NCBI RefSeq assembly: GCF_937129525.1
Contig: NZ_CAKZNK010000025.1
Span: 1 to 42,171 of the forward strand
From: an uncultured Chloroflexus sp.
GTDB taxonomy: Bacteria; Chloroflexota; Chloroflexia; Chloroflexales; Chloroflexaceae
Direction: 5' to 3'
Length of the DNA: 42,171 nucleotides
This document shows, piece by piece, positions 5,977 through 11,098 of the stretch (positions are counted from its first letter, which is position 1; each line of letters begins with the position of its first letter). Under the pieces are notes generated by a model that searched no databases, was not told the DNA's origin, and worked only from the letters and a program-made list of their open reading frames with translations. A program made the position numbers and the translations under genes.

Positions 5977-6109
5977 AGAGACGCGACAGCGCTGCGCGTT
6001 GCGCCATAGCAAGCGCCTTCCGCCAGAGCAAAGGGATAGCGTTGCATCCACTGCGCTCTGACTTGCGATTACAGGAGCGAAGGCGTAAGCGCAACGCTAC
6101 TGCGTCTCT
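5977..6109. repeat. Element with imperfect inverted termini upstream of the arg promoter
   Basis: AGAGACGC at 5977-5984 is perfectly inverted as GCGTCTCT at 6102-6109. Inward, the pairing continues imperfectly over 5985-6005 and 6081-6101, sharing AGCG, TGCGC and CGCC blocks. The whole unit is about 133 bases with no coding capacity. A 14-base direct repeat (GCTGCGCGTTGCGC) occurs at 5991-6004 and again at 6112-6125, where it overlaps the -35 of the next promoter. It may be a decayed small mobile element or a structured regulatory site. Confidence 0.55.
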
Positions 6110-6119
6110 ATGCTGCGCG

Positions 6120-6148
6120 TTGCGCGCTTGCCCCGGCTGTGATATACT
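6120..6148 (+). promoter_or_regulatory. Promoter of the arginine operon
   Basis: TTGCGC (6120-6125), a 17-base spacer and TATACT (6143-6148), with TGA at 6140-6142 making an extended -10. The predicted start near 6155 produces a leader of about 230 bases that contains a short reading frame and several stems. Its -35 overlaps the second copy of the 14-base repeat (6112-6125). Confidence 0.7.
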
Positions 6149-6188
6149 GCTTGCGCGATACGTTGCAGGCAAGGAAGCGATCAGTCCG

Positions 6189-6287
6189 ATGAATAGCATT
6201 GCTCAGATCCGCAATCACCGCAACTCTCCGGTCAGGCATCGTCGCCGCCGTCGTTGCTGTTGCCAGTCGATTGCGCGATCTGGCTAG
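6189..6287 (+). CDS. Arginine-rich leader peptide of the arg operon
   Basis: A 32-codon frame starts at ATG 6189, with AAGGAAG at 6171-6177 as a somewhat distant ribosome site, and ends at TAG 6285-6287. Nine of its 32 residues are Arg, five of them consecutive (codons 18-22, 6240-6254, CGT/CGC only), in the stretch HRRRRRCCC. It lies about 35 bases after the predicted transcription start and directly before stems that can form alternative structures. The five genes downstream include argJ, argH and an acetylglutamate synthase. A run of codons for the pathway's end product is the hallmark of a ribosome-mediated attenuation leader, so the peptide probably has no function except to stall ribosomes when charged tRNA-Arg is scarce. 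Three Cys codons follow the Arg run, so a cysteine input cannot be excluded. A longer in-frame frame from 6042 exists but starts before the promoter. Confidence 0.75.
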   Translation: MNSIAQIRNHRNSPVRHRRRRRCCCQSIARSG

Positions 6288-6341
6288 CCGTGCCTGCCCT
6301 TCAGGAGGAACCGTTCTCAGGCCAGCACTGCCAGCGCGCAG
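6262..6341 (+). promoter_or_regulatory. Alternative RNA stems of the arginine attenuator
   Basis: Stem 1:2 pairs GCCAGTCG (6262-6269) with CGATCTGGC (6276-6284), leaving one bulged base and a 6-base loop; it overlaps the end of the leader frame. The competing antiterminator pairs 6271-6284 with 6330-6341: GCGCG and CTGGC against GCCAGCGCGC, extended by a U-A and a G-U pair, with two bulged bases. It would consume the inner part of the terminator hairpin. A ribosome stalled on the last Arg codons would cover the left arm of stem 1:2, free the right arm and favour the antiterminator. A ribosome at the stop codon would mask the right arm and let the terminator form. The pairings are read directly; the mechanism is inference from known attenuators. 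Confidence 0.65.
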
Positions 6342-6354
6342 GCTGGCCTCTTCT
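6319..6354 (+). terminator. Conditional terminator hairpin of the arg leader
   Basis: AGGCCAG (6319-6325) pairs perfectly with CTGGCCT (6343-6349). Inside, CTGC (6328-6331) pairs with GCAG (6338-6341) around a 6-base loop. CTTCT follows, only a modest U tract. It lies 32 bases past the leader stop and 32 bases before the first structural gene, the right place for an attenuator. The weak U run lowers certainty. Confidence 0.6.
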
Positions 6355-6385
6355 ATGCTATTCGCATATAACCAGTCGAGGACGT

Positions 6386-7084
6386 ATGACACATCTCTAT
6401 CTGATCCGTCACGGCGAATCGGTTGCGAATGTTCAGCCGATTGTCGCCGGTATGCGTGGCGATGCCGGTTTGACTCCGCGCGGGATCGCTCAGGCCGAAC
6501 GGCTGCGCGATCGCCTGGCAACGAGTGGCGAGATTAAAGCCGATGTCTTCATCTCATCGACCCTGCCGCGCGCGTGGCAGACGGCTGAGATCATTCAGCC
6601 AGCGCTGGGATTGCCGATCATCTTCGATGACGAGGTGCAGGAGTTGCGCGTTGGCGAAGCTGATGGAATGTCGAATCAGGAGGCCTGGGCGCGCTTTGGG
6701 ACGCCCGATTTTGATCGTTATCCGCTGCGTCCAATCGCGCCCGGTGGCGAGAGTTGGGGCGACTTTACGCTGCGGGTGAGTCGCGCTCTGACGCGCATTA
6801 CCACCGAGCACGCCGGAAAGACGATTGTGATTGTCTGTCACGGTGGCGTGATCGATTGTTCATTCATCCACTTCTTCCGTATGCCGAGTCTGGTCGTGCC
6901 GCCAATCGATTTTCATACTCGCAATACCAGTATCACCTGGTGGGAGCTGGTTGAGCGGCGGCATCAACGCCTCTGGCGCTTGAATGCGTATAATGACATC
7001 GCTCATTTGCAAGGGATCGGCGCCATTGAGTCGGTACGCTGGGAAGACACCCATCCCGCCGTGCCGGTGCCGACGGAGGAGTAG
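6386..7084 (+). CDS. Histidine phosphatase superfamily protein
   Basis: 232 residues from ATG 6386, with CGAGG upstream. The phosphate pocket is complete: LIRHGES (His9, the phosphohistidine nucleophile), a Glu in ELRVGEADGM, and CHGG (His152). This is the phosphoglycerate mutase-like branch, which includes metabolic phosphatases with many small phosphorylated substrates. The reading frame can be extended upstream to 6254 but that would cross the attenuator, so 6386 is preferred. It is the first structural gene behind the arg attenuator and is separated from argJ by only 4 bases, so it is very probably cotranscribed. The substrate is unknown. No arginine-pathway step obviously needs it, so the link may be regulatory convenience. 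Confidence 0.85.
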   Translation: MTHLYLIRHGESVANVQPIVAGMRGDAGLTPRGIAQAERLRDRLATSGEIKADVFISSTLPRAWQTAEIIQPALGLPIIFDDEVQELRVGEADGMSNQEAWARFGTPDFDRYPLRPIAPGGESWGDFTLRVSRALTRITTEHAGKTIVIVCHGGVIDCSFIHFFRMPSLVVPPIDFHTRNTSITWWELVERRHQRLWRLNAYNDIAHLQGIGAIESVRWEDTHPAVPVPTEE

Positions 7085-7088
7085 TGCT

Positions 7089-8306
7089 ATGCTCAGCCTT
7101 CTCGCCGATGGACACGTCACCAGTCCACGTGGGTGGAGTGCCGCGGTCGCCGCATGCGGGATCAAGTATGCCAATCGCGACGATCTGGCGCTGGTCGTGA
7201 GTGATCGACCGGCCACCGCCGTAGCAGTCTTTACAACCAACGCGGTTAAAGCTGCGCCGGTGCTGTACGATATGGCGTTGATGGCGTCGGTTGCTGAACT
7301 GCGGGCAGTGGTGATCAATGCCGGCAATGCCAATGCCTGCACCGGTAGCGATGGCGATGCTGCGGTGGTAGCAATGGCTCAGGCGGTCGAAGCGGCGCTC
7401 GATCTACCACCCAGGAGCGTCTTTGTGATGTCTACCGGCACGATTGGCGTGCCGATGCCGGTTGCGAAGATTACGCGCGGTATCGCTGAAGCGGCAACGC
7501 GGCTTAGCCCTGATTGCGGTATTGCCGCTGCCCGGGCAATTATGACCACCGATACGCGCCCGAAACATTGCGCAGTGAAGGTTGCGCTACCCGATGGAAG
7601 CGCGATTACTATCGGTGGAATGGCCAAAGGCGCGGGGATGATTCATCCCAACATGGCAACGATGCTGGCAGTGGTAACGACCGATGCCGCTGTGCCGCGC
7701 GATGTGCTCGATGCAGCGATGCGGCAGGCGCTCGAGGTCAGTTTCAACAGTATCAGCATCGATGGCGATACCAGCACCAATGATACGCTGCTGGTGATGG
7801 CCAATGGCGCGAGCGGCGCGCCGCCGATTGTCGATCTCGATTCGCCCGCCGGCGCGGCGTTTCGCGCCGGGCTGATCGCAGTCTGCCAGCATCTTGCGCA
7901 TGCTATCGTGCGCGATGGCGAGGGCGCAACCCGCTTTGTGACCATTACGGTGCGCGGCGCGATGAGCAATGCTGATGCCCGCCTGGCCGCAATGACCATT
8001 GCCCGTTCGCCGCTGGTGAAGACGGCGTTGTTCGGAGCCGATCCGAATTGGGGCCGGGTGCTCTGCGCAATCGGGTACTCTGGCGCAACGGTCGATCCCA
8101 ATCGGGTTGTGTTGCACTTTGGCGGTATGCGCGTGCTCGAGAACGGTTTGCCACTACCGTTCGACGAGCAGGCCGCTCATCAGTTGCTCGATGTGCCCGA
8201 AATCACCATCGACGCCGATCTTGGTCTCGGCGACGGTCAGGCCACGGTCTGGACATGCGATTTTAGCTACGATTACGTGCGGATTAACGCTGAATACCGG
8301 ACATGA
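7089..8306 (+). CDS. argJ: Bifunctional ornithine acetyltransferase / N-acetylglutamate synthase ArgJ
   Basis: 405 residues from ATG 7089, preceded by a strong GGAGGAG. ArgJ transfers acetyl from N-acetylornithine to glutamate, recycling the acetyl group in arginine synthesis; bifunctional forms also use acetyl-CoA. The conserved autocleavage site KGAGMIHPNMATML is present, with Thr191 as the expected new N-terminal nucleophile after self-processing into alpha and beta chains. Motifs VINAGNANACTG, SIDGDTSTNDT and GADPNWGR are all intact. The C-terminus ends YDYVRINAEYRT, as is usual for the family. Mono- versus bifunctionality cannot be read from motifs alone, but a separate acetylglutamate synthase gene lies in the same operon. 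Confidence 0.96.
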   Translation: MLSLLADGHVTSPRGWSAAVAACGIKYANRDDLALVVSDRPATAVAVFTTNAVKAAPVLYDMALMASVAELRAVVINAGNANACTGSDGDAAVVAMAQAVEAALDLPPRSVFVMSTGTIGVPMPVAKITRGIAEAATRLSPDCGIAAARAIMTTDTRPKHCAVKVALPDGSAITIGGMAKGAGMIHPNMATMLAVVTTDAAVPRDVLDAAMRQALEVSFNSISIDGDTSTNDTLLVMANGASGAPPIVDLDSPAGAAFRAGLIAVCQHLAHAIVRDGEGATRFVTITVRGAMSNADARLAAMTIARSPLVKTALFGADPNWGRVLCAIGYSGATVDPNRVVLHFGGMRVLENGLPLPFDEQAAHQLLDVPEITIDADLGLGDGQATVWTCDFSYDYVRINAEYRT

Positions 8307-8335: not shown

Positions 8336-9076
8336 ATGGATTCCACTGCGCGCCAGCAGATTGCGCGTGAACTGTGTCAGCGTCTCGCCACGACGAGGAC
8401 GGATGTTGTTGTGGCCGGGATGCTGGCGCCTTCTGCGCCATTAACCGACTTTGAGCCGCTTGAGTTGCTGGTGGTAGTGGCCAATACAGTTACCCGAACG
8501 CGGCGCAGTTTCCTGATGCAGGATGTAGTAGTAACGGTACATTCCATCGCGCGCGCCGAACTCGAGTCGGTGTTGCGCGCTCCCGATCTGCGCTGGCCGC
8601 AGTGGTTGCACTGGCTGGCAACGCTACAACCGCTGATTGGCCAGCCCGAGCAGGTCAATCGATGGCTGGCCGAAGCTTCCGCCGTCGCCGAACAGGATTT
8701 TCATCGCCGCATCCTGGCTCACCTGCCAGACCTGGTCTTTGCCTGTTACGGTGAACTGCGCGCAGCCGCAGCTCGTCTGAGTGATCGCGATGCGCTGTTG
8801 CTGGTTCCGGTCTTGCTCACCGAGATGCATACGGCGCTCTGCCTGATTAACCGGCGTTGGCCGACGCAACGCGGCTTCGCCGGTCTTGAAGAGAGTTTTG
8901 CTTTTCCCTTGCAACCGCGCGACTGGCCACAACTGGCGACGGACCTGCTTGGCGCTCATCATCTCGCTGATATTGCCCGCCTGGCCGGCGCGCTGGTTAG
9001 TCAATACTGGCAACTACTCGCGCGCTGTAGCCTGACGATTGAACACCATCAAACGATTGCCACGACGCCGTTGTGA
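8336..9076 (+). CDS. Possible nucleotidyltransferase-fold protein of unknown function
   Basis: 246 residues; ATG 8336 has GAGGGAGGG just upstream. I do not recognise a specific family. The N-terminal pattern AGMLAPSAPLTDFEPLELLV resembles the Gly-Ser...Asp-x-Asp/Glu strand-turn of kanamycin-nucleotidyltransferase-like proteins, but the first catalytic acid position is replaced, leaving one Glu. The remainder is mainly helical with several Trp, including two helices rich in Leu/Ala around 130-180 that resemble the helical domain of such enzymes. There are no membrane segments. It sits between argJ and argH with short gaps (29 and 18 bases) and is part of the operon. It could be a degenerate, non-catalytic member or an unrelated fold; an arginine-related function is only suggested by position. 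Confidence 0.6.
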   Translation: MDSTARQQIARELCQRLATTRTDVVVAGMLAPSAPLTDFEPLELLVVVANTVTRTRRSFLMQDVVVTVHSIARAELESVLRAPDLRWPQWLHWLATLQPLIGQPEQVNRWLAEASAVAEQDFHRRILAHLPDLVFACYGELRAAAARLSDRDALLLVPVLLTEMHTALCLINRRWPTQRGFAGLEESFAFPLQPRDWPQLATDLLGAHHLADIARLAGALVSQYWQLLARCSLTIEHHQTIATTPL

Positions 9077-9094: not shown

Positions 9095-10486
9095 ATGGAA
9101 CACCGGCTCTGGGGTGGACGGTTTAGCGAGCCTACGGCGGCTGAGATGCGCCGTTTCAACGACTCGTTTCGTTTCGATGCGCGACTGGCCGAGGTCGATA
9201 TTGCCGGCAGTATTGCGTGGGCCGGCGCGCTGGCCCAGGCCGGTTTGATCAGCGAGGTTGAGCGCGCCGACCTGGTGCGTGGGTTGGAACTGGTGCGCGC
9301 TGAATTTGCGAACGGCACCTTTGTGGCCACCGAGGGCGATGAAGACATCCATACCGCTGTCGAGCGGCGTCTGCGTGAACTGATCGGCGATGCTGCGCTC
9401 AAATTACATACCGGTCGCTCGCGCAATGATCAGGTTGCCACCGATATGCGCCTGTACACCATCGGTATTGCCCGCCAGCTCGACCGTCGCCTGCGTGATG
9501 TGCAACTGGCGCTGCTGGCCCAGGCTGAACGACATACCGATACCCTCATGCCGGGCTATACCCATCTGCAACGCGCTCAACCGATCACCTTCGGCCACTG
9601 GTGTCTGGCTTATGTCGAAATGTTTGCCCGCGACCGCAGCCGGTTGCGCGACGCAATCACCCGCATGCGGGTCTTGCCGTTGGGCGCGGGAGCGTTGGCC
9701 GGCAACTCGCTGGGGGTCGAACGTGAACGACTTACCGAATTGCTCGATGAATTTGATGAACTGGCGGCCAATTCACTCGATGCGGTGAGCGATCGCGACT
9801 TCGTAGCTGAAATTCTCTTTGCCTGCGCCTTGATCGGCGTTCATCTCAGTCGGCTGGCTGAAGATGTTATTCTCTACGCCAGCGCTGAATTTGGCTTTGT
9901 GGAACTGGCTGACGCCTACAGTACCGGCTCAAGTCTGATGCCGCAGAAGAAAAACCCTGATAGTATGGAACTGTTGCGCGGCAAGAGTGGTCGGCTGCTC
10001 GGTAATCTGGTTGCGCTGTTGACCGTCTTGAAGGGGTTGCCGCTCACGTACAACAAGGATATGCAGGAAGACAAAGAGCCGCTCTTTGACAGTTTCGATA
10101 CGCTCGATCTGGGTTTGCAGGTAGCGGCGGCGGCAATTGCAACGATGAAGGCGCGTCCTGAACGGATGGCGGCAGCGCTCGATGATGCGATGCTGGCTAC
10201 CGACCTTGCCGATGAGTTGGTGCGGCGCGGCGTCCCTTTCCGCGTTGCGCATGGCAAAGTCGGGCAACTGGTGCAGCGCGCGCTGGCGCTGGGGGTAAGT
10301 TTGCGCCATCTGCCGTTGAGCGAGTATCAGGCGGTTGAGCCGGCGCTTGATGCCAGTGTGTACGAAATCTTCAACATGGCGCGCAGCGTGGCGCAGAAGG
10401 CGAGTTATGGCGGCACGGCGCCGCAACGAGTGCGCGAGCAGTGTAGCCGCTGGCGTGAATTGTTGCAAGAGATTGATGAAGCGTGA
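9095..10486 (+). CDS. argH: Argininosuccinate lyase ArgH
   Basis: 463 residues, the usual length. GAGGAG precedes the ATG. ArgH cleaves argininosuccinate to arginine and fumarate, the last step of arginine synthesis, as a cytoplasmic tetramer. The start MEHRLWGGRF, the HTGRSRNDQV substrate-binding segment, TPGYTHLQRAQP-type region (His157) and the superfamily signature GSSLMPQKKNPD (about 278-289, with the flexible-loop serine) are all intact. It follows the unknown gene by 18 bases. argG and the other arg genes are not in the window. Confidence 0.97.
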   Translation: MEHRLWGGRFSEPTAAEMRRFNDSFRFDARLAEVDIAGSIAWAGALAQAGLISEVERADLVRGLELVRAEFANGTFVATEGDEDIHTAVERRLRELIGDAALKLHTGRSRNDQVATDMRLYTIGIARQLDRRLRDVQLALLAQAERHTDTLMPGYTHLQRAQPITFGHWCLAYVEMFARDRSRLRDAITRMRVLPLGAGALAGNSLGVERERLTELLDEFDELAANSLDAVSDRDFVAEILFACALIGVHLSRLAEDVILYASAEFGFVELADAYSTGSSLMPQKKNPDSMELLRGKSGRLLGNLVALLTVLKGLPLTYNKDMQEDKEPLFDSFDTLDLGLQVAAAAIATMKARPERMAAALDDAMLATDLADELVRRGVPFRVAHGKVGQLVQRALALGVSLRHLPLSEYQAVEPALDASVYEIFNMARSVAQKASYGGTAPQRVREQCSRWRELLQEIDEA

Positions 10487-10579: not shown

Positions 10580-11098
10580 ATGACCAGCCCGTTATACACA
10601 CCACCGGTCAGCCTGCCGGTATTGCACATTCGGCCTGACGTCGCCGTGACCATTCGACGCGCGCGAGTTGGCGATGTGCCGCGCCTTTACGAGATCATCA
10701 ACTATTACGCCGCGCGCGGCGACATGCTGCCCAAAACGCTCGATCAGCTCTACAATCGGGTGCGCAACTTCAACGTCGCCGAGGTCGATGGTGAAGTGAT
10801 TGGGTGCGCAGCTTTGCACATCACCTGGGCCGATCTGGCCGAAGTGGTTAGCGTTGCCGTTCATCCCTCGTTTCAGGGGCGCGGTATTGGCCGTCGCCTG
10901 GTTGAACCACTCTTTACCGAAGCGCGCGAATTGGGTATTCCGACGCTCTTTACGCTGACCTTGCAGGTTGGTTTTTTCAGCTCACTCGGTTTCCGCGAGG
11001 TGCCGAAATTGCGTTTGCCGCACAAAATCTGGCAAGACTGCGCGACCTGTTTCAAGCAGGATCGGTGCGACGAGGTGGCGATGATCCGGCAAGTGTAA
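10580..11098 (+). CDS. argA: Short GNAT N-acetylglutamate synthase
   Basis: 172 residues. A single GNAT domain is present, with the acetyl-CoA pyrophosphate-binding loop FQGRGIGRRL and the tail GFREVPKLRLPHKIWQDC, followed by two more Cys. The combination LPxKIWxDCxxC is characteristic of the short acetylglutamate synthases that lack the amino-acid-kinase domain. It would supply N-acetylglutamate from glutamate and acetyl-CoA to start or replenish the ArgJ acetyl cycle. The 93-base gap after argH shows no strong promoter, and a hairpin terminator follows the gene, so it is probably the last gene of the operon. Feedback inhibition by arginine is usual for this type but cannot be seen here. Confidence 0.85.
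   Translation: MTSPLYTPPVSLPVLHIRPDVAVTIRRARVGDVPRLYEIINYYAARGDMLPKTLDQLYNRVRNFNVAEVDGEVIGCAALHITWADLAEVVSVAVHPSFQGRGIGRRLVEPLFTEARELGIPTLFTLTLQVGFFSSLGFREVPKLRLPHKIWQDCATCFKQDRCDEVAMIRQV

Follow-up and report, generated by a model that had tools for sequence, protein, structure and literature searches.

A probable arginine-sensing leader-peptide attenuator before arginine genes of Chloroflexus and its lysine sister leaders in Chloroflexota

The window analysed here, the whole stretch of 42,171 nucleotides from a Chloroflexus-type genome (Chloroflexus islandicus and uncultured Chloroflexus are among the closest named loci), carries a short Arg-rich leader and a terminator-like hairpin before a unit of arginine genes, raising the question whether translation of this leader could set the transcription of the genes behind it. 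Judged from sequence conservation and modelled folding, the leader is very probably a classical ribosome-mediated transcription attenuator that senses arginyl-tRNA. The computed support comes from the conservation of the ORF, the Arg codons and the helices, from covariation, from the match between codons and pathway, and from model folding; promoter use, leader translation, termination and the response to Arg-tRNA are what we infer from it. All attenuator elements named by a previous sequence-only reading are present in the window sequence, and its attenuation interpretation is supported as right in substance.

The leader locus and the gene unit behind it

We located a probable promoter at 6120-6148 (all features are on the forward strand), composed of a weak -35 element TTGCGC (6120-6125), a 17 nt spacer and the extended -10 element TGATATACT that had been pointed out before (TG-A-TATACT, 6140-6148). 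A strict sigma-70 consensus scan of the window found no promoter in its copy of the leader; TATACT or TATAGT is kept at the promoter position in relatives, some of them with a -35 element TTGACT or TTGACG. The Shine-Dalgarno sequence AAGGAAG (6171-6177) precedes the leader ORF of 32 codons plus TAG (6189-6287, stop codon at 6285-6287), which encodes MNSIAQIRNHRNSPVRHRRRRRCCCQSIARSG and includes, as originally read, five consecutive Arg codons (6240-6254), the putative sensor. The distance of 11 bases between ribosome site and ATG, formerly listed as a weak point, exists in the window and is explained by the near relatives, which have GGAG at the position of the Shine-Dalgarno sequence and an extra ATG nearer to it. 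The conserved frame, the in-frame codon bias and the Shine-Dalgarno sequence fit a translated leader ORF, and translation is predicted. The region that separates the promoter from the M24 peptidase gene contains an imperfect inverted repeat (GAGACGC...GCGTCTC, window 5978-6110), noticed by eye and possibly a small mobile element.

No leader ORF with a five-Arg run arose in 3000 dinucleotide shuffles of the leader, and the leader RNA fold has z = -2.5. By itself a short ORF with five Arg codons says little, because the window holds three of them; conservation, rather than the Arg run itself, is the deciding evidence for the leader. Conservation also bears on the three Cys codons after the Arg run (CCC, codons 23-25), which the sequence-only reading had counted against itself and which could point to a ribosome-dependent switch sensing cysteine, or the general translation rate. 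The CCC is real but private to the window genome: CRR stands in its place in near relatives and a Cys cluster is absent from most of the others, whereas Arg is found in every case and the genes behind the leader are arginine genes. Cysteine sensing was rejected on the grounds that the Cys codons are not conserved, and the probability of this kind of switch is practically negligible.

The arginine leader precedes five genes that are probably carried on one transcript. The first gene of the controlled unit encodes a histidine phosphatase superfamily protein (His_Phos_1, 6386-7084; PF00300, E 8.6e-42) and is followed by argJ (7089-8306; TIGR00120/PRK05388 above cut-off), a gene at 8336-9076 for a 246-residue protein with no Pfam or NCBIfam match in profile searches (in Pfam even at E 5), argH (9095-10486; TIGR00838 above cut-off) and a GNAT N-acetyltransferase gene (10580-11098; PRK07757 above cut-off). 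The five-gene unit was described correctly with regard to argJ and argH; the acetylglutamate synthase named with them is likely but not certain, as the GNAT protein stays below the cut-offs of the amino-acid N-acetyltransferase models and exceeds only a generic N-acetyltransferase cut-off.

The argG gene of the window's genus is distant (33% identity) and lies on another contig, away from the leader (G000:C29:30451-31578). Because this is the only argG of the genus, its position suggests that an ancestral leader-linked argG was replaced while the leader was kept.

Alternative helices and modelled folding

We detected three helices, 1:2, 2:3 and 3:4, which share arms and are mutually exclusive, and all three are conserved with compensatory changes. 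Region 1 (6262-6266) pairs with 6280-6284 to give the 1:2 stem, the conserved core of the previously described stem 6262-6269/6276-6284. Region 2 (6280-6296) contains CTGGC (6280-6284), which abuts the stop codon, and GCCTG (6292-6296), its partner being either region 1 or region 3. Region 3 (6318-6334) includes both the antiterminator partner (6318-6322 and 6330-6334) and the terminator 5' arm (6319-6331), and region 4 (6338-6349) is the 3' arm of the intrinsic-type terminator. The 2:3 antiterminator consists of two nested helices, 6280-6284/6330-6334 and 6292-6296/6318-6322; the former is the conserved core of a longer competing stem proposed at 6271-6284/6330-6341, the remainder of which did not hold up, and the latter had been missed. 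The 3:4 terminator (6319-6331/6338-6349) corresponds to the terminator-like hairpin seen earlier at 6319-6349, and its inner part is flagged by the terminator scan. It is followed by the T-rich tail CTTCTA (6350-6355), a U tract rightly called modest in the window, whereas many relatives have longer T runs behind the terminator.

In the proposed mechanism, when arginine is scarce the ribosome would stall in the Arg codons and cover region 1; region 2 would then pair with region 3, the terminator would be blocked and the His-phosphatase-argJ-X-argH-GNAT genes would be transcribed. When arginine is plentiful, the ribosome would reach the stop codon, which lies inside region 2 and is placed so that a terminating ribosome would mask this region, and the 3:4 hairpin would form and end transcription before 6386.

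Across relatives in the family, the scored leaders before arginine genes are Arg-rich in 36 of 36 cases, and the orthologous leaders keep the terminator and antiterminator helices with compensatory changes, in agreement with the sequence-only reading. In 12 sequences, 97.5% of the cells of the 2:3 helix are paired and 5 cells are changed on both sides; no shuffle out of 500 scored as high (the shuffles ignore relatedness), and slid controls were 16-51% paired. In 29 sequences, the 1:2 and 3:4 helices together are 95.4% paired with 18 cells changed on both sides, and the 2:3 helix is 95.2% paired with 6 such cells. The 1:2 protector stem, overlapping region 2, has 94% of cells paired (alignment A3), and some members of the genus Chloroflexus have it in a register displaced by 4 nt. 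In genome G016, region 2 and its two partners have changed together (CTGGC to CCGGT, GCCAG to GCCGG).

In genome G418, from a second family of the order, the switch is altered to GTCCGG/CCGGAC, a further compensatory change, and the Arg leader of this genome has an early stop (AEPRFRRPKPA, then stop).

Of the single features, the hairpin with its T-rich tail is the most strongly conserved, which would suit a constitutive intrinsic terminator behind a chance ORF, or Rho or protein action in place of alternative stems. We consider this extremely unlikely, because conservation extends to the frame, to the identity of the Arg/Lys codons and to the 2:3 helix, in a way that matches the pathway. Attenuation by alternative stems was modelled by folding, with equilibrium estimates and the 5' part hidden by an assumed ribosome footprint. 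With the modelled ribosome at the stop codon, the median terminator probability was 0.89, and folding of the window from beyond the stop gave 0.98-0.99. With the ribosome 10-11 codons before the stop, median antiterminator values of 0.60-0.77 and terminator values of 0.18-0.00 were obtained, and 2:3 was near 0.97 in the nascent RNA. The switch in folding was weaker in the window's own copy, where RNA free from 6260-6264 gave 0.62-0.68 for the antiterminator and 0.12-0.19 for the terminator, with lower values at neighbouring start points. The 1:2 stem is often not dominant in folding without a ribosome. For several sequences, the 2:3 helix is formed while the RNA is nascent but gives way to 3:4 at equilibrium, and the outcome therefore depends on kinetics. 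In these models, ribosome-occluded 5' ends flip the structure in the direction expected of an attenuator.

Relatives of the leader and their sensor codons

Relatives of the His-phosphatase are present in all 41 family genomes, and inspection of the DNA upstream of the orthologues revealed the same leader before the phosphatase gene in the 8 genomes of the genus, in several genomes of the Oscillochloris type and in G016, with leader peptides such as HRRRRRCRRQPIARSG, ALRRRRRQPAMRPG and RRQRRPQPAIGPG. In the majority of the remaining genera, argG precedes the phosphatase gene and has the leader directly in front of it. The argJ-argH setting initially described is that of the window; the leader usually stands before argG, and in other families before argC. 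A covariance model built from 12 Arg leaders (R1) found the leader in 33/41 family genomes and 13/18 genera, with matches also in relatives from the order. A model built from Arg and Lys leaders together (R2) found 64 of the 82 genomes of the order (29/34 genera), the family genomes mostly having two leaders each. Some of the weaker R1 matches are leaders other than Arg leaders: homoaconitase is preceded by ITKQVKRSKKPDVWSG and homocitrate synthase by FSKQFKRSKKPAIRLG. A candidate leader in G224 precedes a gene not tied to arginine or lysine.

R1 matches in G202 and G386 (E 0.002-0.008) were set aside as chance, having no matching ORF or gene.

The Arg leader was lost in some genera, and none was seen before argG in f3, in f2 g19 and in several f1 genera. 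In genera g7, g8, g10 and g17, a tRNA gene (apparently for Ala) and a hairpin are found directly before argG, in the place of the Arg leader. Genome G010 carries a second, near-identical Arg leader 1.8 kb upstream (G010:C607:5743-5865), followed by an apparent M24 peptidase gene fragment, an apparent tandem duplication.

The sensor codons follow the pathway. Scored over codons 19 to 7 before the stop, with counts uncorrected for common descent, Arg exceeds Lys in 36/36 leaders before arginine genes (mean 4.8 vs 0.14), and Lys exceeds Arg in 43/45 leaders before lysine genes (mean 3.7 vs 1.0). Arg leaders have about 4.9 Arg codons in frame, compared with 1.1 and 1.0 in the other frames, and the match of codons to pathway is absent from these two frames. 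The sister leader shares the chassis but carries Lys codons (KQxKRxKKP); the gene behind it encodes homocitrate synthase or homoaconitase, or is lysX. One such leader is found in the window's own genome (G000:C141:11253-11379), encoding MRNETSFTKQSKRAKKPDERSG before homocitrate synthase and having the promoter-like site TTGACA-17-TATAGT. The Arg-only model finds Lys leaders at E down to 2e-7. BLASTP of Arg against Lys leader peptides showed no similarity, and the relatedness of the two therefore rests on the RNA model. The Lys leaders before Lys genes look like a natural codon swap.

A leader peptide could also arrest the ribosome via its nascent chain, sensing free arginine or a metabolite such as ornithine, for which the fungal arginine attenuator peptide (AAP) and E. 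coli SpeFL are reportedly precedents. Several of the peptides contain more Arg than a simple run would give, and their C-terminus shows a conserved [SP]-G-stop, but apart from the Arg codons and the 3' end that takes part in the structure the peptide is poorly conserved, the C-terminal codons are accounted for by RNA pairing, and the Lys version differs mainly in its sensor codons. A terminator forming once the ribosome reaches the stop also fits starvation sensing, and we regard arrest by the nascent chain as very unlikely; sensing of arginyl-tRNA by the translating ribosome is the preferred reading.

We further used a codon-blind DNA pattern (CCNGM or CCNGA, GTCTGG, stop, CCAGAC, with the sensor codons left free) on 400 genomes of the phylum and two distant orders. 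The reversed pattern had no match in the same genomes; some of the pattern's matches in the phylum sample fall within coding sequence and look accidental (G008:C34 and G011:C253 among them). All codon-blind matches in the order to which G400 belongs, an order outside the class of the window, are leaders: five argC leaders, all Arg-rich, two of them stopping earlier (RRSPRR and RRSLRY before the stop), and four homocitrate-synthase leaders, all Lys-rich. In G123 and G442 argC is preceded by RYPRRPRMVAPDDVSG, and in G447 a Lys leader stands in front of a LysX-like gene.

The same chassis also occurs before a LysE/RhtB-type transporter; its ORFs are Lys-rich in family f3 and Gln-rich in family f43 (QQRGQQQPDRRSG and SQRQQPASRSG, both followed by stop). 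The direction of the transporter or the logic of the leader may differ here, because an exporter induced by starvation would be odd.

The window leader belongs to a family of predicted attenuators present in several Chloroflexota groups, with interchangeable Arg or Lys sensors, which is larger than the single locus first described. The shared features are the peptide end ...P-D/A-x-x-S-G-stop, the GTCTGG/CCAGAC switch and the terminator. We lean slightly towards the view that these represent one old modular chassis in Chloroflexota, whose sensors are swapped between Arg, Lys and perhaps Gln per operon and which takes on the task that ArgR and riboswitches have elsewhere. ArgR (PF01316) was detected in none of the 82 order genomes, while the same search was positive in 9/14 control genomes, and the Arg leader is plausibly a substitute for ArgR.

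Known systems and significance

Coupling of transcription and translation has its textbook example in leader-peptide attenuation, and the leaders argue for a coupling in Chloroflexota that is close enough for attenuation. Arginine synthesis is apparently controlled in this way in a lineage without detected ArgR. With Arg and Lys versions paired on a single chassis, the sensor bases can be told from the switch bases, and direct tests become possible in a cultivable phylum.

At the gathering threshold Rfam gave no match in the window, and no relevant match was obtained at E <= 1 for 11 loci. The arginine T-box and the lysine (L-box) riboswitch share RNA-level control of the same pathways, but, unlike the Chloroflexota leaders, bind tRNA or ligand directly without leader translation. 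The fungal arginine attenuator peptide is likewise an arginine-responsive upstream peptide; it is eukaryotic and translational, and senses free arginine through the nascent peptide. The Thermus thermophilus hcs cluster is reportedly controlled by lysine leader-peptide attenuation before homocitrate synthase; by its description this resembles the sister Lys leaders, but is for Lys only and in a different phylum.

In the Salmonella speF leader, two Arg codons of orf34 (SpeFL) report arginine supply (PMC6386406). That system controls ornithine decarboxylase via Rho, RBS masking and RNase G (PMC6386406) and, unlike the Chloroflexota leader, has no intrinsic terminator before arginine biosynthesis genes. 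A survey of Actinobacteria contains no arginine or lysine attenuators (PMC1262725). According to a genome-wide survey of 2010, leader-peptide systems had previously been known only in Proteobacteria and Actinobacteria, to which Firmicutes were added, and no arginine or lysine leader-peptide attenuator is among the systems it covers (PMC2965389). In the open-access literature we found neither an arginine leader-peptide attenuator with an intrinsic terminator, of which an unseen description is possible, nor any description of a Chloroflexota leader-peptide attenuator.

The trp/his-type attenuators of Proteobacteria and Actinobacteria share with the Chloroflexota leader an ORF with end-product codons, a stop codon in region 2, alternative 1:2, 2:3 and 3:4 stems and an intrinsic terminator. 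The differences are the Arg (in the sister leader, Lys) codons, the phylum and an antiterminator of two nested short helices. All features open to computational testing agree between the predicted mechanism and the trp/his type, and the best reading is that the amino acid specificity and the phylum are what is new in an otherwise classical attenuation.
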